Shown: one piece after another, positions 6,695 through 57,029 of the stretch
Position numbering within the stretch: position 1 is the first letter of the stretch
Layout of the letters: every line of letters begins with the position of its first letter
Source of the DNA: Neolewinella lacunae
Lineage (GTDB): Bacteria > Bacteroidota > Bacteroidia > Chitinophagales > Saprospiraceae
Direction of reading: 5' to 3'
DNA length: 64,000 nucleotides
Assembly (NCBI RefSeq): GCF_014349155.1
Contig: NZ_JACSIT010000154.1
Span: forward strand, 62,001 to 126,000
The notes under the pieces: model-generated
Databases searched by the model: none
Seen by the model: only the letters and a program-made list of their open reading frames with translations
Told to the model about the DNA's origin: nothing
Position numbers and translations under genes: made by a program

Positions 6695-6712
6695 GGGCGC
6701 GGCCGCAGGTGC
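6695..6712 (+). repeat. Dispersed 18-mer, copy 1 (GGGCGCGGCCGCAGGTGC)
   Basis: Exact match to GGGCGCGGNCGCAGGTGC, the consensus assembled from this window. It lies 23 bases upstream of the DinB-like start codon. Confidence 0.9.
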
Positions 6713-6834
6713 CACGTTCGGGATGGAGGAGCAAGGTAAGGAGAAGACGGTGTCTACTACCAATAGCCAACGTTCCATCCTCAACGGTGAGGTGGTTTTG
6801 GAAAATGGGACAACAGAATTTAACATTCTCAATT

Positions 6835-6985
6835 AGCTGCACTGCTGCCTACGGCGGTCAACATTCAACATTTAACATTTGCTGCCGCTGTTACAAGGCG
6901 CAACATCTAAAATCGCACATCTGACATCACCCATCTGACATCACACATCTGACATCGTACATCCGACATCACCCATCTAAACGTC
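6835..6985. repeat. CATCTGACATC / CAACATT short-repeat cluster
   Basis: The gap between the DinB-like gene and lysC is filled with near-tandem words. TCAACATTCAACATTTAACATT comes first as a run of CAACATT-like units. Then at least five units of the form CATCTGACATC separated by 2-4 variable bases follow (about 6900-6985). The same word recurs after ftsE and after the gene ending at 54634. Spacing is irregular and there are no unique spacers, so it is not CRISPR. No gene is visible in this 387-base gap. Confidence 0.85.
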
Positions 6986-6992
6986 CCATTCC

Positions 6993-7024
6993 TTGCACCT
7001 GCGGCCGCGCCCACGCTATCTTTG
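6993..7024 (+). promoter_or_regulatory. lysC promoter with the 18-mer filling its spacer
   Basis: TTG at 6993-6995, 21 bases of spacer and TATCTTTG at 7017-7024 match the Bacteroidota -33/-7 pattern. Transcription should begin near 7031, giving a short leader before the ATG at 7059. The spacer is almost entirely the dispersed 18-mer (6995-7012). Confidence 0.7.
6995..7012 (-). repeat. Dispersed 18-mer, copy 2
   Basis: GCACCTGCGGCCGCGCCC, the reverse complement of the consensus, exact match. It lies between the -33 and -7 elements of the lysC promoter. Confidence 0.9.
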
Positions 7025-7058
7025 CGCTCCTGATTAAGAATCCCCTCAAAAAGCCGCC

Positions 7059-8363: not shown

Positions 8364-8467
8364 GGAGAGGCAGAGTCACTCCTTGAAATAATGGTCTCTT
8401 TGGCCAAGGGAAGGCTGAGCCCCACGGTACTGCGGGAGAAGAAGTTTAGCACTCCAAGGACGTTGGG

Positions 8468-8514: not shown

Positions 8515-8523
8515 AACCAGTGT

Positions 8524-14189: not shown

Positions 14190-15200
14190 TTACCGACGCC
14201 CCCCGAGCCGGCTGGGTGCCCGTACCGTGGGGGCTGTATTCCGGGTGTTCGCAGCCGCTCGCGTGCGGATGTTGCGGTACTCATTGGCCTTCGCTTGATC
14301 CACCCGAGACATGGTGGCAATCACGGTATTCTGCTCGCTGCCCGGGGCCCCGCGGAAGATATCGACGATCTCGTCGCGCTTTGCATCAACAAAAGCCTGC
14401 ATATAGTCCGTATTGGGGTAGGTCTGGTTGGCTTTTCCCGCGTCTTCGATGGCTAGGGTAACGTTTCTACGGCCGGTGGTCAGGTCATCGCCCATTAAGT
14501 CCAGACCAAGGCGGTGATAGGTGTAGTAGGCGCGGCGCAGGGCCAGCATTTTGGGGTTCAGCACGTTTTCCATCAGCCAGTAGCGGTTCCGGCTACGGCC
14601 GGCGGAGACCCAACCCGGACCGTTGAGGATTTGTGCGGGCAGGCGGTTGTACAGTTCCTGGGCCTTATCGAAGTAGGGCTGGCCGCCCAGCGGGGAGAAG
14701 GTATCGTAGTCAAACCCGATCACCATGTAACAGTAAAAGGCCAGGATGTGGCCCAGGTCACTCACGTAGCTTTGCTCCGAGTACTGAATCGCTTCGCCCT
14801 GGCGGTAGGTGAAGTTGACGGACCGATCCTGGGTATTCAGCACGGGGGTTTGTTCGCTGCTCCCGAAGATCGGGCGCAAACTTTGCAGGGCCATGGTGCC
14901 CTTGTACTGGTCGGGGACGGCCACGTCACCACCATCTCCTTTGCTGGATTGCTCGAATACTTCGCTGATGGTGAGGAACAGCGTAGCATCAATGCGTTCC
15001 TCTTCAGTAAAGCGATCGTTGGTCCAGGTCTGGCTGTTCAGAAAAGTGACGAGGTCTTTTTCCAGGGTGAGGAAAATGCGCTTATCGGCCGTGGTGATCT
15101 GGTCGGTATTCAGGTTCACCGTCCAGCGGATTTCGCTTTGGGCGCTGACGCAGGTGCCAAGCAAAAACAGGGAGCAAAGGAGGGTAAGCAGTCGATTCAT
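14190..15200 (-). CDS. DUF4835 family secreted protein
   Basis: 336 residues from the ATG at 15200. The longer in-frame start at 15338 runs back towards coaBC and lacks a signal. The N terminus MNRLLTLLCSLFLLGTCVSAQ is a signal peptide. The body shows family features such as EIRWTVNLNTDQI, FLNSQTWTNDRFTEEERIDATLFL and YSEQSYVSDLGHILAFYCYMVIG. DUF4835 is Bacteroidota-specific, of unknown function, and lies after coaBC in many genomes, as here; an envelope role is inferred. The C-terminal ~35 residues are Arg/Ala/Thr-rich and low complexity. The usual downstream recN is absent. Confidence 0.88.
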   Translation of the reverse strand: MNRLLTLLCSLFLLGTCVSAQSEIRWTVNLNTDQITTADKRIFLTLEKDLVTFLNSQTWTNDRFTEEERIDATLFLTISEVFEQSSKGDGGDVAVPDQYKGTMALQSLRPIFGSSEQTPVLNTQDRSVNFTYRQGEAIQYSEQSYVSDLGHILAFYCYMVIGFDYDTFSPLGGQPYFDKAQELYNRLPAQILNGPGWVSAGRSRNRYWLMENVLNPKMLALRRAYYTYHRLGLDLMGDDLTTGRRNVTLAIEDAGKANQTYPNTDYMQAFVDAKRDEIVDIFRGAPGSEQNTVIATMSRVDQAKANEYRNIRTRAAANTRNTAPTVRAPSRLGGRR

Positions 15201-15334: not shown

Positions 15335-16630
15335 TCAAAAGCGCCCGGCCAGTGCGTCGAGGATGTCGTCGGCTACGGCGCGCTTGGGTTTGAGCTCGAA
15401 GGCGGTTACGGTATCGCGGTCGAGCAACTGTATTTTGTTGGTGGTATGTCCGAAGGCGGCCCCTTCGTCGTTGGGGGAATTGAGCACAATCAGGTCAAGG
15501 TTCTTGCGTTCCAGTTTACCGCGCGCGTTTTCGAGGGCGTTTTCGGTTTCCAGTGCGAAGCCGACGAGGCGCTGGTGCGGTTTTTTGTCTTCGCCCAGTT
15601 CGGCGGCGATGTCGGGGTTGCGGACGAGATCGATGCGCAGGGGTTTATCTTCCTTTTTGATTTTTTGCTGGGCCATGCTGGCGGGGCGGTAGTCGGCTAC
15701 GGCGGCAGAGAGGATCGCGGCATCGGCTTTGGGCCAGAGGGCTACGCATACGGCGTGCATCTCGCGGGCGGAGCGGACGGGCACGAGGTTGATGCCCGGG
15801 TCGGTGGTAGACAGTTCGGTGGGGCCGAGAACGAGATCAACGCTGGCTCCGCGGGCGGCGGCGGCTTCGGCCAGGGCAATGCCCATGCGGCCGGTACTTT
15901 TGTTGCCCAGGTAGCGAACGGGATCGAGGTCTTCGTGGGTGGGCCCGGCGGTGATGAGGAGACGGCGGCCGGCGTAGTCGTTCCGCGTTGGGGCAACGGC
16001 TAGGGGGCGAACGACGGAGGTGGGGTCCTCCCCCTGCTCTTCCACTTTCCCTGGCACCTGCGGCAGCGCCATCTTATCATCCGCCGGGGCACGGGCAAAG
16101 AAGCGCTCGAGTTCGGCCAGGATCGTTTCCGGTTCGGCCAGCCGGCCCGCCCCGTGCAGGCCCGAAGCCAGTTCCCCCTCGGCCACGTCAATGAGGTGGT
16201 TGCCATAAGACCGGAGGCGCGCCACGTTGCGGCGGGTGGCGGGGTGGGCCCACATGTCGAGGTCCATCGCCGGCGCAAAAAAGACCGGACAGCGGGCAGA
16301 AAGGTAGACGGCCACGACGGGGTTATCGCAGATGCCGTGGGCCATTTTGGCCAGGGTGGTGGCCGTCAGCGGGGCCACCAGCAGGGCATCAGCCCAGAGG
16401 CCCAGTTCGACGTGGTTATCCCAACTCTCCCCGTCGTGCACCGAAGTGGTGACGGGCCGCCGCGAGAGGGTACTGAGCGTTAGCGGCGAAATGAAGGCGG
16501 TGGCCGACTCGGTCATGAGGACCTTCACCTGCGCACCCGCCTTGACGAGGCCCCGCACGATGAGGGCGGACTTATAGGCGGCGATGCTGCCACAAACGCC
16601 TAGGATGATTTTTTTGCCAGCTAACTGCAC
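15335..16630 (-). CDS. coaBC: CoaBC: phosphopantothenoylcysteine decarboxylase / phosphopantothenate-cysteine ligase
   Basis: 431 residues from a GTG at 16630, which immediately precedes KKIILGVCGSIAAYKS, the start of the CoaC flavin domain. Earlier in-frame codons are not protein-like. The CoaC half (~1-185) has the active-site PAMDLDMWAHPATRRN. The CoaB half (~215-430) has ITAGPTHEDLDPVRYLGNKSTG, AAVADYRPA and the KIKKEDKPL lysine motif. Together they make 4'-phosphopantetheine for coenzyme A. The linker (~186-215) carries a one-base variant of the dispersed 18-mer core at 16054-16070. Same-strand order bamD-rpoZ-coaBC-DUF4835 is conserved in Bacteroidota. Confidence 0.95.
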   Translation of the reverse strand: MQLAGKKIILGVCGSIAAYKSALIVRGLVKAGAQVKVLMTESATAFISPLTLSTLSRRPVTTSVHDGESWDNHVELGLWADALLVAPLTATTLAKMAHGICDNPVVAVYLSARCPVFFAPAMDLDMWAHPATRRNVARLRSYGNHLIDVAEGELASGLHGAGRLAEPETILAELERFFARAPADDKMALPQVPGKVEEQGEDPTSVVRPLAVAPTRNDYAGRRLLITAGPTHEDLDPVRYLGNKSTGRMGIALAEAAAARGASVDLVLGPTELSTTDPGINLVPVRSAREMHAVCVALWPKADAAILSAAVADYRPASMAQQKIKKEDKPLRIDLVRNPDIAAELGEDKKPHQRLVGFALETENALENARGKLERKNLDLIVLNSPNDEGAAFGHTTNKIQLLDRDTVTAFELKPKRAVADDILDALAGRF

Positions 16631-19144: not shown

Positions 19145-19162
19145 GGGCGCGGGCGCAGGTGC
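19145..19162 (+). repeat. Dispersed 18-mer, copy 3
   Basis: GGGCGCGGGCGCAGGTGC, exact match to the consensus. It directly follows the tandem repeat after the DUF3137 gene. Confidence 0.9.
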
Positions 19163-23927: not shown

Positions 23928-24839
23928 TTAAGGATCGGGCTCAGTGATCAACACCCGGTAGCCGGGATAATGGCGGGCCAGATCGACTTCGCCAATGGAG
24001 AGCGCCGAGGCCAGTCCGTCGGCCACCATGCCGACGGGGCCAAGGACGGTGACGGTCCGCTGCTGCGTAACACCGAGGCCCGTCCGCGGATCGATCAGGT
24101 GGCTGTAGCGCACGCCTTCCCATTCCAGATAGCGGTAGGCGGCCCCGGAGGTGACTACGGCGGTATGCATGAGGGCTTCTTCGACCGTACCGTCGGGGAA
24201 AGCCACCCGCCAGCCCGGGGCATCCGTAGGTCGTTCGCCGAGGAGGAGGTCGCCGCCCCCGTCGAGGAGGAAGGACGAAAATCCGGCTTCGCGCAGTACC
24301 TGGGCCACTGCATCCAGTGCGTAGCCCTTACCCACGCCGCCAAGATCAAGCGCTACAAAAGACTGGCGCAGGCGGACGCGTGGACTTCCCCTTGCTACCC
24401 GGAGGTTTTTCCAGTGCACCTGCGACCGCGCCCGACTAATCTGTTCCTGCGCAGGAAAAACCTGCTGCCGGAAGGCCCGCCGCCACACTTTCGTCAGGGG
24501 GGCAACGGTGGGATCGAAGGCTCCCCTACTCCGCCGGGCCAGCTGCCGGCTGAACCTTAAGACGTGGTACAAATCGGGCGACACCTCCCGCCAGCCCGTA
24601 CTGCCCCGCAGCTGGTTCAATTCACTGTCCGGACGGTAATCGCTCAGGCATTGTTCCAGCGCATCGATGCGGGCAAAAGCCGCCGCTACCGCCCCCGCCA
24701 GTCCCGTGCTGTCTTCGGTACTGACGGTAAGCGCAAAGAGCGACCCCATCGCCGGGTGGGTAAAATGGTAGCGCTGGGCGGGTAGCCAGTTCAGCAGGAA
24801 ACACAGCGCGAGGGGGAGGGGGAATAGTCGGTAGTTCAT
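23928..24839 (-). CDS. apbE: FAD:protein FMN transferase (ApbE)
   Basis: 303 residues with an N-terminal signal peptide (MNYRLFPLPLALCFLLNWLPA). It transfers FMN from FAD to a Thr of target flavoproteins such as NqrB/C or RnfG, outside the cytoplasm. Family motifs: HPAMGSLFAL, LSDYRPDSELNQL, GAFDPTVAPLTKVW, VALDLGGVGKGYALDAVA, FLLDGGGDLLLG, and YSHLIDPRTGLG with the metal-binding Asp, then VADGLASALSIG. The start codon and second and third codons (ATGAACTAC) lie inside the TAGTTCATAGTTCA repeat, so the 5' end is built on repeat DNA. An 18-mer copy (24416-24433) is in frame within the gene. No Nqr/Rnf genes are nearby. Confidence 0.93.
   Translation of the reverse strand: MNYRLFPLPLALCFLLNWLPAQRYHFTHPAMGSLFALTVSTEDSTGLAGAVAAAFARIDALEQCLSDYRPDSELNQLRGSTGWREVSPDLYHVLRFSRQLARRSRGAFDPTVAPLTKVWRRAFRQQVFPAQEQISRARSQVHWKNLRVARGSPRVRLRQSFVALDLGGVGKGYALDAVAQVLREAGFSSFLLDGGGDLLLGERPTDAPGWRVAFPDGTVEEALMHTAVVTSGAAYRYLEWEGVRYSHLIDPRTGLGVTQQRTVTVLGPVGMVADGLASALSIGEVDLARHYPGYRVLITEPDP
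24416..24433 (-). repeat. Dispersed 18-mer, copy 4 (inside apbE)
   Basis: GCACCTGCGACCGCGCCC on the plus strand, exact reverse-complement match. In the apbE frame it encodes Ala-Arg-Ser-Gln-Val-His. Confidence 0.85.
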
Positions 24840-27269: not shown

Positions 27270-27287
27270 GGGCGCGGCCGCAGGTGC
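27270..27287 (+). repeat. Dispersed 18-mer, copy 5
   Basis: GGGCGCGGCCGCAGGTGC, exact, followed by TCCCCCC exactly as copy 31593-31610 is. It lies in the divergent gap between the SUMF1-family and beta-barrel genes. Confidence 0.9.
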
Positions 27288-27427
27288 TCCCCCCCAACCC
27301 CCCGAAGGGGGGAGAACGGACAGGGAGAAAGGAGGAAGCACCTCCCGCCTTAACAAGCTTTAACCGGCCTTAACAATTCCCTACCTAAATTCTGGTGCCG
27401 CCCTGCGTTATACCCGGCAAACAACAA

Positions 27428-30766: not shown

Positions 30767-31590
30767 TGCGCACCCTCGTCCCCATCCTCCTCCTGGCCTG
30801 CCTGGGCTACGCCGCCTGGTACTATTGGCAGGCCTACACCGACCGGCCGCTGCGCGAGCACGTACTGCTGGCCAGCCCGGCCGAGATCAGCAGCGTCAGC
30901 GTCCAACCCTGGTCTGCCGTTCAGCCCTTCACCGTAACGCGCAACGAAGCGGGCGGCTGGGTGGTACGGGAGGGCACCATCCAGGTGCTCGACCAGGCGG
31001 AGAAAGCCGAGGCCTTCGTAGAGGCACTGGCGGCGCTGCGGACGGACTCCGTAGCACAGCGTTTCCCCGCCGAAGAGCTGAGTCTCCTGACGGTGCATTC
31101 CGAGGCCCACGGCGCAGAGACTTTTGCCCTCGCCCGGCCGCTCGAGGGGCCGGCATTGCTGCGCGTGGAGGCCACCGGCGACGTCTTTGCCCTGCCCGAA
31201 GCCGCCCTCCGGCCTCTCCTGCCCGCCCTGGACTTTAACTACTACCGCGAACGCCGCCTGCTGCGCCTTGCTCCGGCGCGGGTGGATAGCATCGTAGCCT
31301 GGCAGCGCGACAGCTTTTTGTGGCGCATCACTGGGCCGGCCGCCGCACTACACGCGCCAACGTTCATTGCACCTGCGGACGCGCCCTACGCCGATCACTT
31401 CGATGAAATTGCCCACCAAGACCGCTACCACGCCACCATCATTTTGTACGCGGCCGGGCAGCCCCACCGCGTTACGGTCTTTCAAGACGCCCTCTGGCAG
31501 CCGCCCTGGGTACTCGTTGGGGCCGATTTCCCGCGTCGTTTCCTGGGCCTCGATAGCCTAAGTTTTCCGCAGCCCGGGGAGATAGAATAA
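30766..31590 (+). CDS. DUF4340-like membrane-anchored protein
   Basis: 274 residues. One N-terminal TM/signal anchor (LVPILLLACLGYAAWYYW) precedes an extracytoplasmic domain with repeated strand-rich segments (ISSVSVQPW, WVVREGTIQVLDQAEKAEAFVEALAAL, FNYYRERRLLRLAPARVDSIVAWQ) in the manner of DUF4340 proteins. Function unknown. Overlaps rdgB by one base. A near-copy of the 18-mer (31369-31386, one mismatch) is inside the gene, and an exact copy begins 3 bases after the stop. Confidence 0.65.
   Translation: MRTLVPILLLACLGYAAWYYWQAYTDRPLREHVLLASPAEISSVSVQPWSAVQPFTVTRNEAGGWVVREGTIQVLDQAEKAEAFVEALAALRTDSVAQRFPAEELSLLTVHSEAHGAETFALARPLEGPALLRVEATGDVFALPEAALRPLLPALDFNYYRERRLLRLAPARVDSIVAWQRDSFLWRITGPAAALHAPTFIAPADAPYADHFDEIAHQDRYHATIILYAAGQPHRVTVFQDALWQPPWVLVGADFPRRFLGLDSLSFPQPGEIE
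31369..31386 (-). repeat. Dispersed 18-mer, variant with one mismatch
   Basis: GCACCTGCGGACGCGCCC: position 11 is A instead of C. In frame it encodes Ala-Pro-Ala-Asp-Ala-Pro in the DUF4340-like protein. Confidence 0.75.
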
Positions 31591-31592
31591 GC

Positions 31593-31610
31593 GGGCGCGG
31601 ACGCAGGTGC
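31593..31610 (+). repeat. Dispersed 18-mer, copy 6
   Basis: GGGCGCGGACGCAGGTGC, exact. It starts 3 bases after the DUF4340-like stop and is followed by TCCCCCC, as is copy 27270. Confidence 0.9.
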
Positions 31611-35689: not shown

Positions 35690-35697
35690 GCAGTACG

Positions 35698-35817: not shown

Positions 35818-37302
35818 TTACTGCAAGACCCGCGTATCGTAGGTGCCGATGCCCTGGGCCTTGAGCCAGCTTTGGTGGGCGCGGAGGCGACGCAGAAAAT
35901 CGGGGTAGTTCCTTTTGCTCTGCGGGGTCCAGCCGATTTCGGCCAGGGCCAGCAGGCGGGGGAAGGTGAGGTAGTCGATGTCTTCGATGTTGCGGATGGT
36001 CTCGCCCCACAGGGGTGCCTCCACGCCGAGGATATCGGCGTCGGTGATGCCTTCGGTCAGCTCGGCGGGGTTCCAGTTGTAGGCGGAGTCAACCTCAATG
36101 TAGGCCGCCCAGTGGAGGCCGATACGGGAGGTGCTGTCGTACTGCATATCCAGGTAAGTCCGGGTGGCGGGGCTCATCAGGACCTGGTTGCCGGAGGCGC
36201 GGGCCATCTTGGCGTATTCGGCGTGGTTCCAGAGTTGGGCAATGGTGCCTGGGGCGAGTCCAGCTACGGCGACTTCATCCCAGCCCACGGGGATTTTACC
36301 GTTGTTGATGATGATTTGTTGGGCCTGGCGGACGAACTTCACATAGTCGTCGTGGGGCGTAACGGCGCTTTCGTCGCCCCCGAGATGAAAGTAAGGGCCG
36401 GGGGTGAGGTCGGAGATTTCCCGCACGACGTCTTCCACGAACTGGTAGGTGACTTCTTTATTGGCATCGAGGGTACTGAAGCCGACGCGGGTGCCGGTGT
36501 AGGGGTCGCGGGCGCGGCCGTCAAGGTTCAGCTCAGCGTAGGCGGAAAGGGCGGCGTTGGTGTGGCCGGGCATATCGATTTCGGGCACCACGGTCATGCC
36601 GCGGCTGGCGGCGTAGGCTACGAGGTCCTGGTACTGCTCCTGGGTGTAGTAGCCGCCGGGGGTGCCGTCAACTTCAAAGCGGCCGCCGATTTCGGCCAGG
36701 GCGGGCCAGGATTTGATTTCGATGCGCCAGCCCTGGTCGTCGCTCAGGTGCAAGTGCAGGTGGTTGATTTTGTAGGGGGCCAGGCGATCAATGACGGCTT
36801 TGACGGTGTCAACGCCGAAGAAAGTCCGGGCCACGTCCAGCATATAGCCGCGGTAGGCATAGCGGGGCCGGTCGGTGATGGTGCCCACGGGCAAAAAGTG
36901 ACCCACCTCCGTGCTGGGGCTGAAGGCGATGATTTGTTCCAGGGTAGTGGTGCCGTTAAAGATGCCAGCCGCGTCGGGGGCAGTAATGGAGATGGCCTTG
37001 GGCAGGATACTGAGCCGGTAGCCGCCGGCCGGGAGACCCAGCGTAGAATCGATGGCGGTGGTGAGGGGGAGGCCAGTCAGGCCCTTGCTCTTCAGGTATT
37101 CCACGGCACCTGCGTCCGCGCCCAATTCCGCTACCTCCACCGCAGGGCCAAAGTAGAGGTAACCCGCTTCAGCCGTCATTTCTACGGGCAAGGGCACCAG
37201 GGGAAGCTCCGAAAAAACGGGCATGTTTTCGGGAGCGGGCGGCACCTGCGGACCGCAGGAAAAAAGGCAGAAAGCAAGGACAAAGCCAAGGAAAAGACGC
37301 AT
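35818..37302 (-). CDS. Beta-N-acetylhexosaminidase (GH20) lipoprotein
   Basis: 494 residues. Lipoprotein signal with lipobox LFSC (MRLFLGFVLAFCLFSC). A GH20b N-terminal domain (~30-140) precedes the TIM barrel, which begins YRGYMLDVARTFFGVDTVKAVID. Barrel motifs: YKINHLHLHLSDDQGWRIEIKSWP, VVPEIDMPGHTNAALSAY and the catalytic pair in FHLGGDESAV, where Asp positions the substrate acetamido group and Glu is the acid/base; then PVGWDE. It releases terminal GlcNAc/GalNAc from chitin, glycans or peptidoglycan fragments at the surface. Near VanX-like and hydrolase genes; a glycan-scavenging role is inferred. Confidence 0.94.
   Translation of the reverse strand: MRLFLGFVLAFCLFSCGPQVPPAPENMPVFSELPLVPLPVEMTAEAGYLYFGPAVEVAELGADAGAVEYLKSKGLTGLPLTTAIDSTLGLPAGGYRLSILPKAISITAPDAAGIFNGTTTLEQIIAFSPSTEVGHFLPVGTITDRPRYAYRGYMLDVARTFFGVDTVKAVIDRLAPYKINHLHLHLSDDQGWRIEIKSWPALAEIGGRFEVDGTPGGYYTQEQYQDLVAYAASRGMTVVPEIDMPGHTNAALSAYAELNLDGRARDPYTGTRVGFSTLDANKEVTYQFVEDVVREISDLTPGPYFHLGGDESAVTPHDDYVKFVRQAQQIIINNGKIPVGWDEVAVAGLAPGTIAQLWNHAEYAKMARASGNQVLMSPATRTYLDMQYDSTSRIGLHWAAYIEVDSAYNWNPAELTEGITDADILGVEAPLWGETIRNIEDIDYLTFPRLLALAEIGWTPQSKRNYPDFLRRLRAHQSWLKAQGIGTYDTRVLQ
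37106..37123 (-). repeat. Dispersed 18-mer, copy 7 (inside the GH20 gene)
   Basis: GCACCTGCGTCCGCGCCC, exact. In frame it encodes Leu-Gly-Ala-Asp-Ala-Gly-Ala in the variable N-terminal domain. Confidence 0.85.
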
Positions 37303-39298: not shown

Positions 39299-39316
39299 GG
39301 GCGCGGCCGCAGGTGC
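39299..39316 (+). repeat. Dispersed 18-mer, copy 8
   Basis: GGGCGCGGCCGCAGGTGC, exact, between the COX3 stop and tamB. Confidence 0.9.
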
Positions 39317-44319: not shown

Positions 44320-44337
44320 GGGCGCGGGCGCAGGTGC
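44320..44337 (+). repeat. Dispersed 18-mer, copy 9
   Basis: GGGCGCGGGCGCAGGTGC, exact, 7 bases after the tamB stop. Confidence 0.9.
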
Positions 44338-44815: not shown

Positions 44816-46129
44816 ATGCGCACGCTTCTTACCCTGCTTTTCCTGACCTTCCTTTGCACCTGCGGCAGCGCCCAACGAGGGCTCCTGAAAGCGGGCCCCA
44901 TGCTTGGCTACTGTGAGCAACGGGAGGTGATGATTTGGGTCCAAACCACCGAGCCCGCAGCGGTGGCCATCGTCTACACCGATTCGTTGGGCAAAAGCTA
45001 CCGCACCGCTCCGGTGATGACCCTCCCCCAAACTGCGCACGTGGCTAAACTGGTGGCCGACCGCGTCTTGCCCGGCCAGCATTACACCTACCAGGTAGAG
45101 ATTAATGGCGAAGTCATTGCCCTGCCCTACCCCACTGCATTTACGGCCCAGCCGATCTGGCGCTGGCGGCAGGATCCGCCCGACTTCACCGTAGCCCTCG
45201 GCAGCTGTACCTACGTCAACGAGCCCGAGTACGACCGCCCAGGTGCCGGCTACGGCAGCGAATACGAAATCTTCACCAGCATTAACCGGGCCCAGCCCGA
45301 CCTGATGGTTTGGCTGGGCGACAACATGTACCTGCGGGAGCCCGACTGGTACACCCGCACCGGCTACTTCCACCGCTACAGCCACACCCGTGCCCTGCCC
45401 GAGATGCAAGCCCTGCTGGCCCGCACCCACCACTACGCCACCTGGGACGACCACGATTACGGCCCGAACAACTCCGACCGCACCTGGGTACAAAAGGAAC
45501 TGGCCAAAGAAACCTTCGACCTGTTCTGGGGCAACCTCACCAGCGGGCTGCCCGGCAACGGCGGCATCACCAGCACTTTCCGCTACAACGATACCGACTT
45601 TTTCCTCCTCGACAACCGCTCCTTCCGCACCCCCAACGACCAGAAACGGCCCGACAACAAGACCCTGCTCGGCGAACAACAACTCGAATGGCTCATCGAA
45701 AGCCTCATCTCCAGCGACAGCCCCTGGAAGATGGTCTGCATCGGCGGGCAGGTACTCAACACCCACCGGGGCGGCAGCGAAACCTACGTAAACCTCGCCC
45801 CGGCGGAACTGGAATACCTCCTGCGCAGAATCACCGAGGAAGACATCAGCGGCGTAGTTTTCCTGACCGGCGACCGTCACCACACCGAGATGAGCCAACT
45901 AAAACTTGCCAATGGCAAGATGGTCTACGACCTGACCATCTCCAGCCTGACGGCCGGAACGGGGAGCAGCCGCGACGAACAAAACAACAACCGCGTAGCG
46001 GGAACCCTCCAGGTGAGGCACAACTTCGGCCTGCTCAGCTTTGCCGGGCCACTCCGGGAGCGCCGCCTCACCGTAGAAGTCTTCGCTACCGACGGCAGCT
46101 TGCTCTGGAAGCGGGAATTGACCCGCTAA
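44816..46129 (+). CDS. PhoD-like alkaline phosphatase/phosphodiesterase
   Basis: 437 residues from the ATG at 44816. Signal peptide MRTLLTLLFLTFLCTCGSAQ; an 18-mer variant (44856-44873) encodes its Cys-Thr-Cys-Gly-Ser-Ala end. A PhoD N-terminal beta domain (~25-115: GPMLGYCEQREVMIWVQTTEPA) precedes the metallophosphatase domain with FTVALGSCTYVNEPEYD, PDLMVWLGDNMYLREPDWY, YATWDDHDYGPNNSD and VVFLTGDRHHTEMSQL. It releases phosphate from organic esters in the periplasm or outside the cell. A perfect hairpin terminator follows. No Pho box was recognised. Confidence 0.92.
   Translation: MRTLLTLLFLTFLCTCGSAQRGLLKAGPMLGYCEQREVMIWVQTTEPAAVAIVYTDSLGKSYRTAPVMTLPQTAHVAKLVADRVLPGQHYTYQVEINGEVIALPYPTAFTAQPIWRWRQDPPDFTVALGSCTYVNEPEYDRPGAGYGSEYEIFTSINRAQPDLMVWLGDNMYLREPDWYTRTGYFHRYSHTRALPEMQALLARTHHYATWDDHDYGPNNSDRTWVQKELAKETFDLFWGNLTSGLPGNGGITSTFRYNDTDFFLLDNRSFRTPNDQKRPDNKTLLGEQQLEWLIESLISSDSPWKMVCIGGQVLNTHRGGSETYVNLAPAELEYLLRRITEEDISGVVFLTGDRHHTEMSQLKLANGKMVYDLTISSLTAGTGSSRDEQNNNRVAGTLQVRHNFGLLSFAGPLRERRLTVEVFATDGSLLWKRELTR
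44856..44873 (-). repeat. Dispersed 18-mer, variant with one mismatch
   Basis: GCACCTGCGGCAGCGCCC within the phosphatase signal-peptide codons. The same variant core occurs at 16054-16070 in coaBC. These two may be chance or true variants. Confidence 0.5.
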
Positions 46130-46150: not shown

Positions 46151-46186
46151 AATAAGTAGTGGTGCCAACAAGGGCCACTACTTATT
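46151..46186 (+). terminator. Hairpin terminator after the PhoD-like gene
   Basis: AATAAGTAGTGG and CCACTACTTATT form a perfect 12-base stem around a 12-base loop 21 bases after the stop. The A/T-rich base can terminate in both directions. Confidence 0.75.
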
Positions 46187-46198
46187 CGCGCGTCCTTA

Positions 46199-46372
46199 GA
46201 GCTTGTCTAAATTTTTACTTCCTGATAATCAAGCAGTTTGCTACGCAGTACTTCGTGCTACGAACCTGCCGTCACAAAAAATGGCTTACGTAGTGCACTA
46301 GGCGCGCAATCTTTTGTCTAGCCAGAACCGTAAGTCATTGATTATCAGTCCTTAAAAACTCCAGACAAGCTC
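46199..46372. mobile_element. MITE-like element with TTA target duplication
   Basis: Begins GAGCTTGTCT and ends AGACAAGCTC. The imperfect inverted repeat continues for ~35 bases, through TGATAATCAA and its partner TTGATTATCA. It is 174 bases with no coding capacity, flanked by TTA on both sides (46196-46198 and 46373-46375). A 3-base TNA duplication is typical of one branch of the IS5 family, so it may be mobilised by such a transposase elsewhere (inference). The right TTA is the stop codon of the HAD gene. Confidence 0.75.
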
Positions 46373-46804
46373 TTAGTCCTTAAATACCTCAACGTCGCGG
46401 TTTTTCACCACGAGGTCGGTGAACTTTCCTTTGAAGCGGGTGGCCTTCACGATGTGGTTATCGATCCAGTGGTAGTTGCCGCCGCGGGGCTTGTTCATGA
46501 GCATGGAGTGCCACTTGAAATTGTGGCGGGTGAGCCACTCTTCGGTGATTTCCCGGTGCTCTTCGGTGCGGGAGGTGAAGAAGGTGATGATGTGGCCTTC
46601 ATCGTACCATTTATTTACAATGCGGAGGGCATCGGGGTAAGGCAGGCAAGTGCCCATGCGCTCGGGTTCCTCGTTGGGGATGTCGTCGCAGATCGTTCCG
46701 TCGATGTCGATCAGGAAATTCTTGACGCCATTGGGGAGGACGGGGCTGATGAGTTCGCCTTTCTCGTTGAAGGTAGTTTCGAGGGCTTTTTCAGGACTAG
46801 CCAT
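46373..46804 (-). CDS. HAD-superfamily hydrolase-like protein
   Basis: 143 residues. Motif I of the HAD fold is complete (FLIDIDGTICDD, ~30-41), motif II FFTSRTEEHREITEEWL (Ser/Thr) follows, and a Lys-containing segment LMNKPRGGNYHWIDNHIVKA with a later acidic residue completes the pocket. Small cap-less HAD proteins of this kind dephosphorylate sugar or nucleotide phosphates; similar Bacteroidota proteins are sometimes labelled phosphoheptose isomerase without support. The last codon is followed by TAA provided by the target duplication of the adjacent MITE. Confidence 0.8.
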   Translation of the reverse strand: MASPEKALETTFNEKGELISPVLPNGVKNFLIDIDGTICDDIPNEEPERMGTCLPYPDALRIVNKWYDEGHIITFFTSRTEEHREITEEWLTRHNFKWHSMLMNKPRGGNYHWIDNHIVKATRFKGKFTDLVVKNRDVEVFKD

Positions 46805-48080: not shown

Positions 48081-51000
48081 TTAAAATTGGGTATTGGTCA
48101 GGAACTGTTGTTCCCGGATGAGTTGATGGAGTTGGTGGAGTTGCGCGAGGCGCTCCTGGCGGTCCGTCAGCAGCGTATCACTGAGTTGGCGGAAGGTCAG
48201 AAAATCGATGGCCCCCTCGGCAAATTGGAGGCTGGCGATGCGCAGGAGGCGGTCTTCGCTGGCGGTGGCTCCCGCGTCGGTACCTTCGGTGGCGCTGCGC
48301 AGGGTGCGGATGTTGCGGTCCAGTTCTTCCAGACGCTGCTGGCGTTGTGTGGACAGGCTGCGGCGCAGGGTGCTGAGTTGCTCGTCTTGCAGGCGGCGTT
48401 GTTCGGTGCGGACTTTGCTTTCCCGGCGGTCGAGGGGCAGGGCCAGGCCTACGAAGAGGCCCTGGAAGGCCAGTTCTTTCTCCAGCGTCTGCACGAAATA
48501 GCCGGCGGAGAGCTGGGGCTGGCGGCTCAGGGTGCGGTCCAGTTCGCCCTCCCGGCGCAGCGTTTCCTGGCGGGCCCGCAGCTGTTGTTCCCGGGCGCTG
48601 GTATCGGCGGGTAGGGCCGTGCTTACGGGCAGGGGCAGGGCCAGGGGGCGCGGTCGCAGGTGCTGGGTAGAGGACAATTGAGCGAGGCGACGCACTTCGC
48701 TCTCCGCCGCCAGGGCCCGGCTGGCGGCCAGGTCGCGGTTGCGCCGGGCGGAGCGGAGGCGCTGGCGAAACAGTTCTTCCTCCACCACCCCGAGCGTTCC
48801 GGCCCGCTGCCGGGTAAGGAGCTGGCCCTCCAGCTCGGCGTAGCGCTGCAAGACCGTATCCTGCAGGGCAACCTGGGCCAGCTCGTAGCGCCAGGCGTCG
48901 TAGGCCGTGGCCAGCTGGTAGGCCAGGTTGCGGCGCAAGGATTGGCCGCTGGCGACCACTTCGGCCACCTGGGCATCCACCAGCGCGGCGCGGGGAGCCC
49001 GGCTGAAGAGGTGGTTGAAATTTTGCCGCGCACTGATGAGGTGGTCAAAGTCCCGGGCGTTGATCTGCCCGCCCTGGTAGTCGATTTCCAGCGGTGCCCA
49101 CTGCCCGATGGCCTGGCGGTTCAGTCCCACGGCAGCCTCTTCCCGGCGCAGGTTGGCCAGCTCAGGGTTTTGGCCGATGGCGAGGTCAAGCAGCTGGGGA
49201 AAGTCTTCGATGGGCTGGGCGTGGAGACCGGTATTGCCCCCCATTGCTCCTAACAACAAGACCATGGCACCTGCGGCCGCGCCCCGGAAACTACGGCCGT
49301 TGACTACCCGGTAAAGCGCCGGCAACACCACCAGCGTCAGCAAGGTAGAAGAGAGCAAGCCACCGATGACGACCGTCGCCAGGGGCCGCTGCACCTCCGC
49401 TCCGCTGCCCGTAGACAGCGCCATGGGCAAGAAGCCGAAGGCCGCCACCGCCGCCGTCATCAACACCGGCCGCAGGCGGGTGGTGGCGGCTTCGGTGATG
49501 GTTTCGATGACGCCCAAGGCCCGCTCCTGCCGCAACTGGCGAATGGCACTGATGAGTACGATGCCATTGAGCACCGCAATGCCAAACAAAGCAATGAAAC
49601 CAATGCCCGAGGAGATGCTGAAAGGCATGCCCCGCAGCCACAGCGCCAGGATGCCCCCGATGGCCGAAAGCGGCACCGCCACCAAAATCATCAGCGCATC
49701 GCGGGCCGACGAAAAAGCCAGGTAGAGCAACAGAAAGATCAGGCCCAGGGCAATGGGCACGGCGATGAGCAGGCGCTGCCGGGCGCTGCGCAGGTTCTCG
49801 AAAGTGCCACCGTACTGGATCTCGTAGCCGGGGGGCAGGTCGAGCCCCTCCGCCAACCGGGCCTGGATGTCTTCCACCAGCCCTGCCACATCGCGGTTGC
49901 GGACGTTGACACCGATGTTGATGAAGCGCCGGGCCTGCTCGCGGGAGATCAGCATGGGGCTGAGGCGTTCTTCCACGGTAGCCACTTCGCTTAAGGGGAG
50001 GAGGCGGCCGTGGTGGTCCGCCAGCGTCAGCTGGGCCAGGTCCAGGTCCTCCCGGTACGCTTTATCCAGACGCACTACGAGGTCGAACTTCCGTTCTTCT
50101 TCGTAGACGGCGCCCACGACCTCGCCGGCGTAGGCGGCCCGGACGAGCTGGTTGGCCGCGCGCACATCGATGCCGAACTGGGCCAGGCGGTCGTGATCGT
50201 AGCGGACGTTGAGCTGGCGCAGGCCATCGGTTTGGTCAACCTTTACGTCGCCCGCCCCGTCAATTCGCCGGATGATGTCGGCGGCCAACTCCGCCTGGGC
50301 CTTGAGGACGGTGGGGCTTTCCCCGAAAATTTTCACGGATACGTCGGACTTCGACCCCGTCATCAACTCGTTGAAGCGAAGTTGGATGGGCTGCGTGAAT
50401 TCGAAGGCCGCCCAGGTGAGGGGAGCGAGTTTTTCCTTCATGAGGGCCATGAGGTCTTCGGTGTTGTCGGCTGACGTCCATTCCTCTTTGTCTTTGAGGA
50501 TGATCATGATGTCGGCATCTTCGATGGCCATGGGGTCGGTGGGCACTTCGGCGGTACCGATTTTGGAGACGACGTGCCTGACCTCGGGAAAATTATCGAG
50601 CAAAATCCGCTCCGCCAGCGTGGAGGTGTGAATGCTTTCCTGCAGGGAACTGCCGGGCTTGATGGATTGCTGCATGGCGATATCGCCTTCCTCCAGGGTG
50701 GGGATGAACTCGCCACCCATGCGACTGAAGAGCAGTAGCGACAGGGCAAGTGCCAGGCCTGCCAGAACGAGTGTGAAGGTGGCCCTGTGCAGCGCGACGC
50801 GGAGTACGGGCCGGTAAAGCCGTCCGAAAAAATCCATGATCCGGTGGGCAAGCCCTCCTTCCGGCCGGATTTCTTTTTTGATGAACAGCGAAGCCATGAC
50901 GGGGACGTAGGTTACCGAAAGCAGCAGGGAGCCGAGGATGGCCAGGCTGACCACCTGGGCCATGGGGCGGAAAGTTTTGCCCTCCACCCCTTCGAGGGCC

Positions 51001-52385
51001 AGGATCGGCAGGAACACCACCAGGATGATGAGGACACCGAAGGCAGCAGCCCGGTAAATCTTCCCCGTCGCCGCCAGTACAACCCCATCGAAGGCCGGCT
51101 GGCTCAGCTTTTGCCCGACGTAACTGACGGCCAGCACGTGCAGCAAGCCTTCCATGATGATGACTGCTCCGTCGATGACGATGCCGAAATCGATGGCCCC
51201 CAAAGACATCAGGTTGGCCGAGATGCCGAAGTAGCGCATGAGGATGAGGGCGAAGAGCATCGACAGTGGGATGACAGAGGCGACGATGAGGCCCGCCCGT
51301 AAATTGCCCAGCAACAACAGTAGTACGAAAATGACGATGAGGCCGCCTTCGATGAGGTTAGTCCGGACGGTATCGATGGTCCGGCCAATGAGTGCCGCGC
51401 GGTCGAGGTAGGGGTAGATGCTGACGCCTGCGGGCAGGGCACTCTGGATGGTTTTCATGCGTTCCTCGACGTTGGCCAGGGCTTCGGAGGAGTTGGCCCC
51501 TTTGAGCATCAGGGTGATGCCGCCGACGACCTCGCCTTTGCCGTCCATCGTCATGGCCCCGTAGCGCTTGGCGCTGCCGGTGGTGACGGTGGCTACGTCG
51601 CGCACGCGCAGGGGTGGGCCGGTGGTATTGCCCAGGGGGATGGCCCCGATGGACGCTGGCGTGGTGACCCGCCCATCGGTACGGATGTAGTAGGAGTAGC
51701 TGCCGCGCTCCAGGTAGCTGCCGCCGCTGTTTTCGTTGTTGTCTTGCAGGGCGGTGATGACTTCGGCCAGGCTGATGCCCGTGGCGCGGAGCTGGTCCGG
51801 CAAAATGGCTACCTCGTACTGCTTGAGGTAGCCGCCGAAGCTGCTCACCTCGATGATGCCGGGCGTACCGTTGAGCTGGCGTTTGACGATCCAGTCCTGG
51901 ATGGTACGCAGCTCCGTAGCGTCGTACTGGTGGGCGTGGGCGGCATCGACGGTCAAGACGTACTGGTAGATTTCGCCAAGGCCGGTGGTGATGGGCATCA
52001 GCTCGGTGTCTACCCCTTCGGGTAATTCACCGGCGGCTACGTTGAGTTGCTCCTGGACGTACTGCCGGGCGCGGAGCACCTCCACCGTTTCCTCGAAAAC
52101 GATGGTGATGACGGAAAGCCCGTAACGGGAGATGGAGCGGACCTCGAGCACGTCGGGGATATTGGTCATGGCCGCCTCCAGGGGGTAGGTGATGAGTTGT
52201 TCGACCTCCTCGGGGGCGAAGGTGGGGGCAACGCTGACGATCTGCACCTGGTTGTTGGTGATGTCGGGGACGGCATCGAGCGGGATGCGCGTAGCGGAGA
52301 AAATGCCGAGGGCGGCCATGGCAGCAACGCCCAGCAACACGATCAGCTTATTCCCCAGGGAAAACCTGATGATACTTTCGAACAT
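48081..52385 (-). CDS. CzcA/CusA heavy-metal RND pump fused to a TolC-like outer membrane factor
   Basis: 1434 residues from the ATG at 52385 (MFESIIRFSLGNKLIVLL). Residues 1 to ~1030 are an HME-RND transporter. They have TM1, porter domains (APTFAPEEVEQLITYPLEAAM), TM4 motif SLGAIDFGIVIDGAVIIMEG with the proton-relay acids, and TM7-12 with FGIAVLNGIVLIS and FGFLPMALSTGSGAEVQRPLATVVIGG. At ~1033-1060 comes a signal-peptide-like remnant (MVLLLGAMGGNTGLHAQ). Then ~380 residues of TolC-type helices (LLDLAIGQNPELANLRREE ...). Such CzcA-CzcC fusions are known in Bacteroidota. Expected cargo is Cu, Ag, Zn, Co or Cd. Two exact 18-mers lie inside. Confidence 0.94.
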   Translation of the reverse strand: MFESIIRFSLGNKLIVLLGVAAMAALGIFSATRIPLDAVPDITNNQVQIVSVAPTFAPEEVEQLITYPLEAAMTNIPDVLEVRSISRYGLSVITIVFEETVEVLRARQYVQEQLNVAAGELPEGVDTELMPITTGLGEIYQYVLTVDAAHAHQYDATELRTIQDWIVKRQLNGTPGIIEVSSFGGYLKQYEVAILPDQLRATGISLAEVITALQDNNENSGGSYLERGSYSYYIRTDGRVTTPASIGAIPLGNTTGPPLRVRDVATVTTGSAKRYGAMTMDGKGEVVGGITLMLKGANSSEALANVEERMKTIQSALPAGVSIYPYLDRAALIGRTIDTVRTNLIEGGLIVIFVLLLLLGNLRAGLIVASVIPLSMLFALILMRYFGISANLMSLGAIDFGIVIDGAVIIMEGLLHVLAVSYVGQKLSQPAFDGVVLAATGKIYRAAAFGVLIILVVFLPILALEGVEGKTFRPMAQVVSLAILGSLLLSVTYVPVMASLFIKKEIRPEGGLAHRIMDFFGRLYRPVLRVALHRATFTLVLAGLALALSLLLFSRMGGEFIPTLEEGDIAMQQSIKPGSSLQESIHTSTLAERILLDNFPEVRHVVSKIGTAEVPTDPMAIEDADIMIILKDKEEWTSADNTEDLMALMKEKLAPLTWAAFEFTQPIQLRFNELMTGSKSDVSVKIFGESPTVLKAQAELAADIIRRIDGAGDVKVDQTDGLRQLNVRYDHDRLAQFGIDVRAANQLVRAAYAGEVVGAVYEEERKFDLVVRLDKAYREDLDLAQLTLADHHGRLLPLSEVATVEERLSPMLISREQARRFINIGVNVRNRDVAGLVEDIQARLAEGLDLPPGYEIQYGGTFENLRSARQRLLIAVPIALGLIFLLLYLAFSSARDALMILVAVPLSAIGGILALWLRGMPFSISSGIGFIALFGIAVLNGIVLISAIRQLRQERALGVIETITEAATTRLRPVLMTAAVAAFGFLPMALSTGSGAEVQRPLATVVIGGLLSSTLLTLVVLPALYRVVNGRSFRGAAAGAMVLLLGAMGGNTGLHAQPIEDFPQLLDLAIGQNPELANLRREEAAVGLNRQAIGQWAPLEIDYQGGQINARDFDHLISARQNFNHLFSRAPRAALVDAQVAEVVASGQSLRRNLAYQLATAYDAWRYELAQVALQDTVLQRYAELEGQLLTRQRAGTLGVVEEELFRQRLRSARRNRDLAASRALAAESEVRRLAQLSSTQHLRPRPLALPLPVSTALPADTSAREQQLRARQETLRREGELDRTLSRQPQLSAGYFVQTLEKELAFQGLFVGLALPLDRRESKVRTEQRRLQDEQLSTLRRSLSTQRQQRLEELDRNIRTLRSATEGTDAGATASEDRLLRIASLQFAEGAIDFLTFRQLSDTLLTDRQERLAQLHQLHQLIREQQFLTNTQF
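48646..48663 (+). repeat. Dispersed 18-mer, copy 10 (inside the pump-TolC fusion)
   Basis: GGGCGCGGTCGCAGGTGC, exact. In the gene frame it encodes His-Leu-Arg-Pro-Arg-Pro in a Pro/Leu-rich linker of the TolC-like part. Confidence 0.85.
49267..49284 (-). repeat. Dispersed 18-mer, copy 11 (at the RND/TolC joint)
   Basis: GCACCTGCGGCCGCGCCC, exact. It encodes Arg-Gly-Ala-Ala-Ala-Gly between the pump's last helix and the remnant signal peptide of the TolC-like part. Confidence 0.85.
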
Positions 52386-52509
52386 AAAAACTTGGGAATG
52401 GCGGGAGGGCAAGGGGTGCTGGACGAAAATCCAGCAGCGCGCCGACCCGGGGTAGCACGATCGCTGGCCGGAGCCAGCGCAGAGGGTGCGCTAAGTGCGC
52501 GAAAGTGGG

Positions 52510-54852: not shown

Positions 54853-54869
54853 GCACCTGCGGCCGCGCA
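54853..54869 (-). repeat. Dispersed 18-mer, end-degenerate copy
   Basis: GCACCTGCGGCCGCGC then AA instead of CC. It directly follows the repeat block and lies upstream of the M20 dipeptidase gene. Confidence 0.8.
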
Positions 54870-55001
54870 ATAATCTGCCCCACGTAAATTTTCCGCCCCC
54901 CACCCCGCCAAACAAGGACGAAAACCGGAATCCGAACAGCACAATCCCCCCGGCACCTTACCTTGTGCCTCCAATTGCCCAACGCGCAGCTGCCCAAGAC
55001 C

Positions 55002-56393
55002 ATGACTACCCACCAGTACATCGACGCCCACCGCGAACGCTTCCTCGAAGAACTGTTCAGCCTCCTCCGCACCCCGAGCGTGAGCACCGACCCCGCCCGC
55101 AAGGACGACACCCACTACTGCGCCACCCAGGTGCAGGAGTACCTGCTCAAGGCCGGGATGGACGAAGTGAGCCTCTACCCCACGGCCGGCCACCCCATCG
55201 TCTACGCCGAAAAAATCATCGACCCCGCCCTGCCCACCGTCCTGGTCTACGGCCACTACGACGTGCAGCCCGCCGCCCCCCTCGAGCAGTGGGAAAGCGC
55301 CCCCTTCGAGCCCGTCATCAAAAAAACGGCCCTTCACCCCGAAGGTGCCATCTTTGCCCGGGGCGCGACTGATGACAAAGGACAGATGTTCATCCACGTC
55401 AAAGCCGTGGAAGCGATGATCCAGACGGGCAACCTGCCCTGCAACGTCAAATTCATGATCGAGGGCGAGGAAGAAATCGGCAGCCCCAACCTGACGCCCT
55501 TCATCCAGCAGTACCACGAAATGTTGGCCGCCGACGTCATCCTCGTGTCCGACACCAGCCTGCTGGCCAACGACGTGCCCAGCATCACCGTGGGCCTGCG
55601 CGGACTGAGCTACCTGGACGTAAAAGTGACCGCCGCCAGCAAAGACATGCACTCCGGCACCTACGGCGCGGGCGTCGCCAACCCCATCAATACCCTCTGC
55701 GAAATGGTGGCCAAGCTCAAAGACGAGCGCAAACACATCACCATCCCCGGTTTTTACGACGACGTGGTGTTTCCTTCCGATGAGGTCCGGGACATGATCC
55801 GCAACGCCCCCTTCGATGCGGCAGCGAAGATGGAAGGCCCCGGCCTGTTCGGGCTCGAAGGCGAAGAAGGCTACCACTTCTACGAGCGCACGGGCATTTT
55901 GCCTTCGCTGGATTGCAACGGCATCTGGGGCGGCTTCATGGAAAAAGGTTCCAAAACGATCATCCCCGCCGTGGCCAACGCCAAAATCAGCATGCGCCTG
56001 GTGAGCCAGCAAAACCACGAAAAAGCCGCGCAGCAGTTTGCGGACTACTTCAAATCCCTGGCCCCGGATACCGTGCGCGTGGAAGTCACGCCCCACCACG
56101 GCGGCAATCCCTACGTGACGCCAACCGACACCGTGGAGTACCAAGCCGCCTCCGCCGCCATGGAAGAAAGCTTCGGCCGCGTGCCCGTGCCGATGTACGG
56201 CGGTGGCTCCATCCCCATCATCGCTGCGTTCAAGGAAATTCTCAAAATCGAAACCATCCTCATGGGCTTTGGCCTCGATTCCGACGGCCTGCACAGCCCC
56301 AACGAGCACTTCGGCGTGGTCAACTTCTTCAAAGGCATCGAAACGGTTCCGCTCTTCTTCCGGGCCTACGCCAGCCGCAAAGCGGGCGCCTAG
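55002..56393 (+). CDS. M20-family dipeptidase
   Basis: 463 residues from the ATG at 55002. Zinc-dependent exopeptidase: first metal ligands in VLVYGHYDVQPA (H-x-D), FARGATDDKGQMFIHVKA with bridging Asp, the catalytic and ligand pair in IEGEEEIGSPN, a dimerisation domain (~200-350: GLRGLSYLDVKVTAASKDMHSGTYGAG), and the last ligand His in LHSPNEHFGV. It resembles carnosinase/cytosolic dipeptidases, cleaving dipeptides. No signal peptide. The stop TAG shares a G with the next gene's GTG. Confidence 0.95.
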   Translation: MTTHQYIDAHRERFLEELFSLLRTPSVSTDPARKDDTHYCATQVQEYLLKAGMDEVSLYPTAGHPIVYAEKIIDPALPTVLVYGHYDVQPAAPLEQWESAPFEPVIKKTALHPEGAIFARGATDDKGQMFIHVKAVEAMIQTGNLPCNVKFMIEGEEEIGSPNLTPFIQQYHEMLAADVILVSDTSLLANDVPSITVGLRGLSYLDVKVTAASKDMHSGTYGAGVANPINTLCEMVAKLKDERKHITIPGFYDDVVFPSDEVRDMIRNAPFDAAAKMEGPGLFGLEGEEGYHFYERTGILPSLDCNGIWGGFMEKGSKTIIPAVANAKISMRLVSQQNHEKAAQQFADYFKSLAPDTVRVEVTPHHGGNPYVTPTDTVEYQAASAAMEESFGRVPVPMYGGGSIPIIAAFKEILKIETILMGFGLDSDGLHSPNEHFGVVNFFKGIETVPLFFRAYASRKAGA

Positions 56394-56980
56394 TGCAGGA
56401 GGCAGAAGAGACCAATGCGGCAGCCAAGCCACGCAGCAAACGCCAAAAGCAGGCAGCCGTGCTGCGCATCGCCCGGAAACTCCACCGCCTGGCGGGCGTC
56501 GCCCTGTTTGTCTTCTTCTTCGTCATGGCCATCACCGGCGGACTCCTGGGCTGGAAAAAACACGCGGGGGAAATGCTGATGCCCAAAACTTACGCGGGTG
56601 CAAGTGCAGACCCGGGCAGCTGGCTGCCTATGGATAGCCTCAGTTTCCTGGCCATCGAGGCGCTTTACCAGTCCACCGGCCAACTCCTGGAGGTGGACCG
56701 CATTGACGTCCGGCCCGACAAAGGCAGCATGAAATTTCTCTTCCCCCGCCGCAACTTCGAGGTGCAGCTCGACGCCGCAACGGGGCGGGTCCTCAGCGTC
56801 GGCCGCCGCCACAACGACTGGATCGAGCAGGTCCACGATGGCTCCATCGTCGACGACTGGCTCGGCATCCCCAACGGGCTTTTCAAGGTGTTTTACAACA
56901 CGGTCATGGGCGCGGCACTCGTGCTCTTCACCGTAACCGGTTTCTGGTTGTGGTACGGGCCCCGGCGCATGCGCAGGTAG
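56393..56980 (+). CDS. PepSY-domain membrane protein
   Basis: 195 residues from a GTG that overlaps the M20 stop by one base (TAGTG). A Lys/Arg-rich cytoplasmic start leads to TM1 (LHRLAGVALFVFFFVMAITGGLLGW, ~40-63). An extracytoplasmic PepSY-like domain follows (~75-165: LSFLAIEALYQSTGQLLEVDRIDVRPDKGSMKFLFPRRNFEVQLDAATGRVLSVGRR), then TM2 (VFYNTVMGAALVLFTVTGFWLWYG, ~165-188). This is the layout of short PepSY-associated TM proteins, linked in other genomes to siderophore uptake or reductases. Function here unknown. An 18-mer follows 31 bases after the stop. Confidence 0.82.
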   Translation: MQEAEETNAAAKPRSKRQKQAAVLRIARKLHRLAGVALFVFFFVMAITGGLLGWKKHAGEMLMPKTYAGASADPGSWLPMDSLSFLAIEALYQSTGQLLEVDRIDVRPDKGSMKFLFPRRNFEVQLDAATGRVLSVGRRHNDWIEQVHDGSIVDDWLGIPNGLFKVFYNTVMGAALVLFTVTGFWLWYGPRRMRR

Positions 56981-57011
56981 TTGATCTTTTCGTGGGGCGG
57001 TGTTTTACGTT

Positions 57012-57029
57012 GGGCGCGGTCGCAGGTGC
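57012..57029 (+). repeat. Dispersed 18-mer, copy 12
   Basis: GGGCGCGGTCGCAGGTGC, exact, downstream of the PepSY gene and just before the AT-rich island. Confidence 0.9.

Follow-up and report, generated by a model that had tools for sequence, protein, structure and literature searches.

Introduction

In the literature covered (mostly open literature, with preprints left out), genome-wide uptake words with dialects were found only for the Neisseriaceae and the Pasteurellaceae, and no paper on such a word in the Saprospiraceae came up. The DNA uptake sequences (DUS) of the Neisseriaceae form inverted pairs near gene ends. Their species dialects follow phylogeny, as described in the available part of PMC3630211. 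According to the available part of PMC12616744, the DUS is a continuous word of up to ∼13 nucleotides with the core CTG and the receptor ComP, the words of the other family are the 9-mers AAGTGCGGT or ACAAGCGGT, and the uptake signal sequences (USS) of the Pasteurellaceae fall into two dialects with the inner core GCGG. Here, a 64,000-nt stretch of the Neolewinella lacunae genome (contig NZ_JACSIT010000154.1, positions 62,001 to 126,000; hereafter the window) was analyzed, in which a dispersed 18-base word, GGGCGCGGNCGCAGGTGC, is proposed as the core of a signal for self-DNA uptake in the genus Neolewinella.

Two further classes of dispersed sequence can be set beside such words. Repetitive extragenic palindromic (REP) sequences with RAYT transposases are short, mostly intergenic, present in hundreds of copies and often arranged in inverted pairs, and Chi and similar oriented motifs are species-specific words with genome-wide over-representation. 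Among the Bacteroidota, Riemerella columbina preferred its own DNA in a transformation competition test, and short A-rich k-mers were listed with their role left open (available part of PMC7965970). A transposon screen in Riemerella anatipestifer yielded essential transformation genes without homology to well-characterised machinery (PMC8459023, likewise in part).

Results

Abundance and Structure of the Word

In the window, GGGCGCGGNCGCAGGTGC occurred in 12 exact copies, and none was found in 100 dinucleotide shuffles; when up to three mismatches were allowed, 20 copies were observed against 1.14 expected. All 12 copies listed in the first-pass annotation of this DNA were recovered, with every coordinate and strand matching. 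The word was not confined to the window, since the whole genome (5.8 Mb, 154 contigs) contained 879 exact copies (448 forward and 431 reverse), with none for the reversed control, and the relaxed core GGCGNNGNCGCNGGTGC gave 1133 matches. The 18-mer, whose longer context had gone unnoticed, proved to be the core of a two-block element of ∼45 bp, in which the core is followed by a purine-rich stretch and then by a second block near GGAGCAAGG. Its ninth base, described as free, was indeed represented by all four nucleotides, but unequally (C 68%, A 16%, G 8% and T 8% in the 75 exact copies of the genome with complete flanks).

The detailed sample comprised 453 kb (the window and 389 kb more of the same genome), and genes were called with a home-made hexamer script, no annotation being used (339 genes, 79% coding). 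This sample contained 120 copies with at most two mismatches, 76 of which were exact. For the 93 copies that lacked a run of C after the core, 44 starts of the motif [GA]AGC[AG] were located 14–17 bases past the core; for the 27 of 120 copies with such a run, 19 starts were located at 37–38 bases. The second block of the hairpin-bearing copies was therefore placed 21–22 bases farther from the core, which is approximately two helix turns. C-rich hairpins numbered 34 in the 453 kb, and 24 of them directly followed GGTGC; as we read the flanks, nine of the other ten appear to lie inside the element and one shortly upstream of the core. The hairpin-bearing copy at 27270 folded no better than shuffles (z 0.46, DNA parameters). 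Upstream flanks were generally unrelated, given that only 34 of 6786 pairs among 117 copies shared at least 20 of 40 bases. An upstream word, TTTTGCGGTGCAGTATTT, had 20 matches, and in 7 of them the distance from it to the core was identical (e.g., in loci L037, L046, L048 and L050).

Distribution and Dialects in the Genus

The exact word was present in the genome under study and in 18 of 20 further members of the genus, and in 0 of 79 other relatives. A dispersed word of one form or another was present in every one of the 21 Neolewinella genomes, in no fewer than 140 copies. The relaxed core was matched 140–1407 times in 18 of these genomes, 29 times in G006, 6 times in G010 and 5 times in G001 (G-numbers denote single genomes), with reversed controls summing to 0–18 per genome. 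When a slightly stricter pattern was used, 5 of 117 family genomes from other genera showed 1–2 matches, and among the matches listed in a wider scan there were single ones in unrelated phyla, which look like chance.

Local consensus words were derived from 20–110 kb per genome, some with few sites, and read GGGCGCTGCCGC(A/G)GGTGC in G013, NGGCGCGGNCGCGGGTGC in G019, GGGCGGGGCCGCAGGTGC in G011 and GGGCGGGGACGCAGGTGC in G017, while the consensus of G005 began with A; in seven other genomes, the 5–100 kb covered in each was insufficient, or contained too few sites, for the seed consensus to shift. The words of G001, G006 and G010 emerged when 11-mers were counted de novo in ten genomes. The first two have a centre longer by two bases, GGGCGGCGGAGCGCAGGT in G001 and GGGCGCCGGAGCGCGGG in G006, with 324 and 404 genome-wide matches, respectively; the long-centre pattern gave 0–148 matches in the other 19 genomes and 0–1 in reversed controls. 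The word of G010, GGCTAACAAAGTAGCAATG-like, occurred 257 times (123 + 134), and it was found neither in the other 20 genomes nor in reversed form.

These words were compared with a tree built from the rpoB codons of 20 genomes (G009, which had no match, was left out), in which 7 of 17 inner branches were open. The sisters G001 and G006 (87/97) share the long-centre form, the sisters G011 and G008 (96/99) share GGGCGGGG forms, and G010 forms a long branch. The dialects appear consistent with phylogeny, save for the sisters G013 and G019 (100/100), which have different ones.

A de novo 11-mer count in five other genera revealed no comparable word in G021 (only GC-rich words at 5–6), G022 (30 kb), G033 and G042. 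A dense but different word, TTTTTGCGCAAGC, was observed in G045, from another genus of the family (L370–L373), with up to 13 copies in 80 kb; it could represent terminators or another dispersed signal.

Change of the Sites Among Relatives

Two genes of the window show how single sites differ between species. In the gene at 35818–37302, where the core encodes GADAGA, the core aligned ungapped in six relatives. Of these, G005 and G003 had the exact word, G002, G014 and G007 differed from it at one or two positions, and G013 carried GGGCGCTGACGCGGGTGC, which is its own dialect; other residues were found in G015, G016, G001 and G012. The gene at 48081–52412, which we read as a probable efflux-like fusion, had the motif at the aligned place in G018 and G002. 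In G019, GGGCGCGGTCGCGGGTGC (the G019 dialect) adjoined a 3-residue insertion, and in G005 the motif followed a 19-residue insertion. In a second form of this efflux-like gene, the same codons held the core in G013, G014 and G015, and the long-centre word in G001.

In bulk, 142 spanned comparisons at 44 sites, made in both directions and thus not independent, yielded 80 without a gap and 3 with a gap of at least 18. A separate count with the species consensus words gave at least 10 gap columns in 3 of 129 comparisons, many of these alignments being only 64–72% identical and unsure at the site. Because site-spanning alignments are biased against insertions, split alignments were counted too, and 3 of 7 were longer by 54–57 bases and insertion-like. 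For a further 1530 site-by-locus pairs, the sequence covered contained no ortholog, and the relatives are 64–88% identical, so that recent insertion events are not visible. These data indicate that most sites, including those within genes, originate and evolve in situ through base substitution, and that a few insertion-like cases remain.

Genomic Placement

Of the 120 copies, 87 were intergenic and 33 were located within genes (16 sense and 17 antisense). Near gene 3′ ends, 34 of 38 same-strand copies lay within 50 bases of the end, compared with 8 of 23 opposite-strand copies. All 15 pairs of neighbors less than 400 bases apart were inverted (11 convergent and 4 divergent). The spacing of clusters was more even than under a gene-aware null, which keeps the gene and intergenic shares of the copies (coefficient of variation 0.694 versus 0.937, sd 0.091; 0 of 3000 as low), and a spacing test without genes gave P 0.0044. 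Exact copies were mixed by strand in the fetched parts of three contigs (8+/12−, 9+/9− and 10+/12−).

Seven copies lay inside genes and no farther than 100 bases from the called start (window positions 15140 and 44856; L032:4543, L034:9697, L038:8163, L042:2558 and L047:9278). All seven were antisense and encoded TCVSAQ, TCVRAQ and the like. As judged by eye, without a predictor, all seven seem to encode the end of a signal peptide, and the word is therefore fitted into working reading frames. Position 7 was T in five of the seven, including the two of the window; this T gives serine, and the usual G gives arginine.

Machinery Genes and a Viral Contig

ComEC (PF03772) was detected in 21 of 21 genomes of the genus and in 10 of 14 control genomes. 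PF00437 gave only partial matches (positions 139–222 of 370), which narrowly exceeded the 24.9-bit cut-off in 11 of the 21 genomes, with 25.5 bits as the best. No clear type IV pilus ATPase was found among the 21 genomes with PF00437 (pilins were not searched). The RAYT-type family PF01797 was present in 20 of 21 genomes, with two matches over the cut-off in the genome under study; it was absent from G018 despite 429 exact copies of the word there. The surroundings of 30 fetched PF01797 matches contained 14 words in 95 kb, an ordinary density.

A viral contig of 44.6 kb (IMGVR_UViG_3300009467_000002; loci L165, L179, L194, L223 and L228) carried 7 exact copies together with second blocks, at about the density of the bacterial genome. 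Nine of its open frames were searched, which gave two anti-repressors, one collagen-like tail fibre, one phage family of unknown function and five frames without a match. In one open frame, the first residues of the product are MKHLLTLLFILTLCTCVRAQ, in our reading a likely signal peptide, and an exact copy lies antisense at the start of this frame. A phage may be exploiting the putative uptake signal of its host.

Sites in the Window

By word match and gene calls, 8 of the 12 exact copies were intergenic, in agreement with the placement mostly in gaps reported before. The core at 6695..6712 (+), whose second block, GGAGCAAGG, was read from its flank at 6728..6736 (+), forms a convergent inverted pair with the core at 6995..7012 (−), with 282 bases between them. 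Four more intergenic cores were located at 19145..19162, 27270..27287, 39299..39316 and 57012..57029 (all +), and a C-rich hairpin module (27288..27314, +) directly follows that at 27270. The remaining two lie shortly past called gene ends, by 2 bases at 31593..31610 (+) and by 7 bases at 44320..44337 (+).

Five genes with in-frame copies had been claimed; the home-made gene caller placed four exact copies in three genes, because two of them, at 48646 and 49267, share one gene. The core at 24416..24433 (−) is sense in its gene. That at 37106..37123 (−) is sense in the gene at 35818–37302, and its second block, GAGCAAGGG (37082..37090, −), is in frame as well (K-S-K-G). In the gene at 48081–52412, the core at 48646..48663 (+) is antisense, and that at 49267..49284 (−) is sense, encodes GAAAGA and is aligned in relatives.

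The near-copies were recovered as listed, with one mismatch each at 31369 and 44856 and two each at 54853 and 16054; a further one at 15140 (one mismatch) had been overlooked, and nothing was found at the supposed partial copy at 4131 with up to three mismatches. The copies at 15140..15157 (+; TCVSAQ, a likely signal-peptide end) and 44856..44873 (−; TCGSAQ) have T at position 7 and are antisense in gene starts. The copy at 31369..31386 (−) is antisense in a gene and forms a divergent inverted pair with that at 31593. The copies with two mismatches are located in a gene (16054..16071, −) and between genes (54853..54870, −).

Rfam gave no match at any word site of the window. Its sole match in the window was a cobalamin riboswitch (RF00174, 117 bits) at 3842–4034 on the + strand. 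Other repeated words among the commonest 10- to 16-mers of the window were GATGTCAGATG, GTTCATAGTTCA and CACTAAGGGCACTAAG. Two dispersed repeats, at 35289–35693 (∼400 bases) and 46180–46376 (180–200 bases), were 86–96% identical to several other places in the same genome.

Discussion

On the sequence evidence, we give a probability of about 0.62 to a role in self-DNA uptake, in which the word would serve the genus Neolewinella as the core of a signal similar in kind to DUS and USS, but in another phylum. A DNA receptor of natural transformation would prefer word-bearing fragments, and recombination of the preferred fragments would keep swapping poor sites for better ones. Sites would then accumulate by base substitution on both strands and over the whole chromosome, wherever the local sequence tolerates them. 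If the preference of the receptor shifted in a lineage, the sites would follow and a new dialect would result. We infer DNA uptake as the driver, one receptor for both blocks, and competent species. This reading is favored because self-preferring uptake with recombination would account together for the build-up by substitution, the use of both strands, the even spacing, the tolerance within genes and the dialect shifts. Among the four roles put forward in the first-pass annotation, the DNA uptake signal fits the pattern best and seems the best supported, although not proved; a mobile repeat is disfavored for most copies by substitution, dialects and even spacing, and the length and degeneracy of the word make a modification site unlikely.

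A number of observations weigh against an uptake signal. Competence and uptake are themselves only postulated for these species, ComEC is so widespread that its presence proves little, and the receptor route known from DUS and USS is not seen, given that no clear pilus ATPase was found. The sisters G013 and G019 differ in dialect. Nor is the dialect strict: G013 carries GGGCGCGGGCGCAGGTGC, which lacks its customary T at position 7, in the second form of the efflux-like gene, where G016 shows a long-centre word. Given the insertion-like split alignments and the fixed distance of TTTTGCGGTGCAGTATTT, some copies, although a minority, may have spread within a larger unit. The spanned comparisons are not independent, and this reading does not account for the C-rich hairpin modules.

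The main rival, which we consider unlikely, is a binding site, selected for even placement, of a protein that organises the chromosome or acts in recombination or repair (a nucleoid protein, a Chi-like hotspot or a nuclease-sparing mark), with dialects arising by co-evolution with that protein. Such a site would agree with the spacing beyond the gene-aware null, with copies over the whole genome and with the shift of the block distance by about two helical turns when a hairpin lies between. It would not predict the lack of a local strand preference or the copies inside genes and signal peptides. Moreover, the complete change of word in G010 would need hundreds of sites to be re-tuned by direct selection, whereas an uptake drive would do so itself. 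The oriented, Chi-like version was rejected on the local mixing of strands in the fetched parts of three contigs.

A minimal mobile or duplicating repeat, similar to REP sequences or miniature inverted-repeat transposable elements (MITEs), is improbable. Hundreds of largely intergenic copies, the inverted pairs, the TTTTGCGGTGCAGTATTT flank, hairpin modules nested in the element and the insertion-like split alignments would suit it. However, large gaps are rare at orthologous sites, the flanks are unrelated, the word fits in frame into signal peptides, and species have dialects; substitution at the sites, the fit to reading frames, even spacing and inverted close pairs together disfavor it. 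As to a REP/RAYT or MITE origin proper, spread by insertion was not supported by alignments with relatives of 64–88% identity, and PF01797 was not linked to the word: G018 lacks the family, and the 30 fetched surroundings of PF01797 matches have the word at ordinary density.

Slightly less credit still is due to a drive from another step of DNA transfer, in which the word would act like a start of packaging or export in a gene transfer agent, a phage or a sequence-specific DNA release. The same pattern would be expected from any transfer that favors self DNA and is followed by recombination, and the phage-like contig carries the word at about host density, but a headful packaging start should need few sites. 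Least probable of all is a transcription terminator or RNA element at gene ends, which the same-strand excess near gene 3′ ends and the hairpins possible from inverted pairs would fit, but which is at odds with the in-gene copies on both strands, the poor folding of the 27270 hairpin copy, the lack of Rfam matches at the window sites and the existence of dialects.

If the word is an uptake signal, it would be a third case of an uptake word, in the Bacteroidota, and the 21 genomes would show a word remodelled in place. They would offer a natural series for the joint change of receptor and signal and for the rise of bacterial sexual isolation, and they would point to a DNA receptor of an unfamiliar kind. 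A fuller version of this idea, to which we assign even odds, is that the Bacteroidota are a third bacterial lineage in which self-DNA recognition evolved independently. The system would rely on a word of ∼45 bp, its two blocks kept in helical phase, and on a receptor that is probably not of the known pilus type. Dialects within the one genus would have arisen through base preference and centre length, the word of G010 would have been exchanged wholly (perhaps with AGCAATG as a relic of the second block), and phages of the genus would bear the word so as to enter by the same path.

Comparison with Known Systems

Compared with Chi, the Neolewinella word is much longer and its strands are locally mixed. 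It differs from REP/RAYT elements in that its sites appear to evolve in place by substitution, occur in frame in genes and are not linked to PF01797. Riemerella columbina belongs to the same phylum and prefers its own DNA, but the available part of that source (PMC7965970) describes neither a long word nor dialects.

The word is neither DUS nor USS proper, given that the words of the genus differ from those of the two families. Like the USS, it has a GC-rich core with further conserved positions downstream, but its core has 18 rather than 9 bases and its tail is purine-rich rather than T-rich (available part of PMC12616744); the GCGG of the USS also occurs inside GGGCGCGG, probably by chance. 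It differs further from the USS in its distinct second block, its optional hairpin modules and its many more dialects in one genus. With respect to the DUS, the word belongs to another phylum, is unrelated in sequence, spans ∼45 bp in two blocks and comes without a clear pilus ATPase. It nevertheless shares with the DUS a high copy number, placement on both strands and both in and between genes, inverted pairs, and dialects along the phylogeny.

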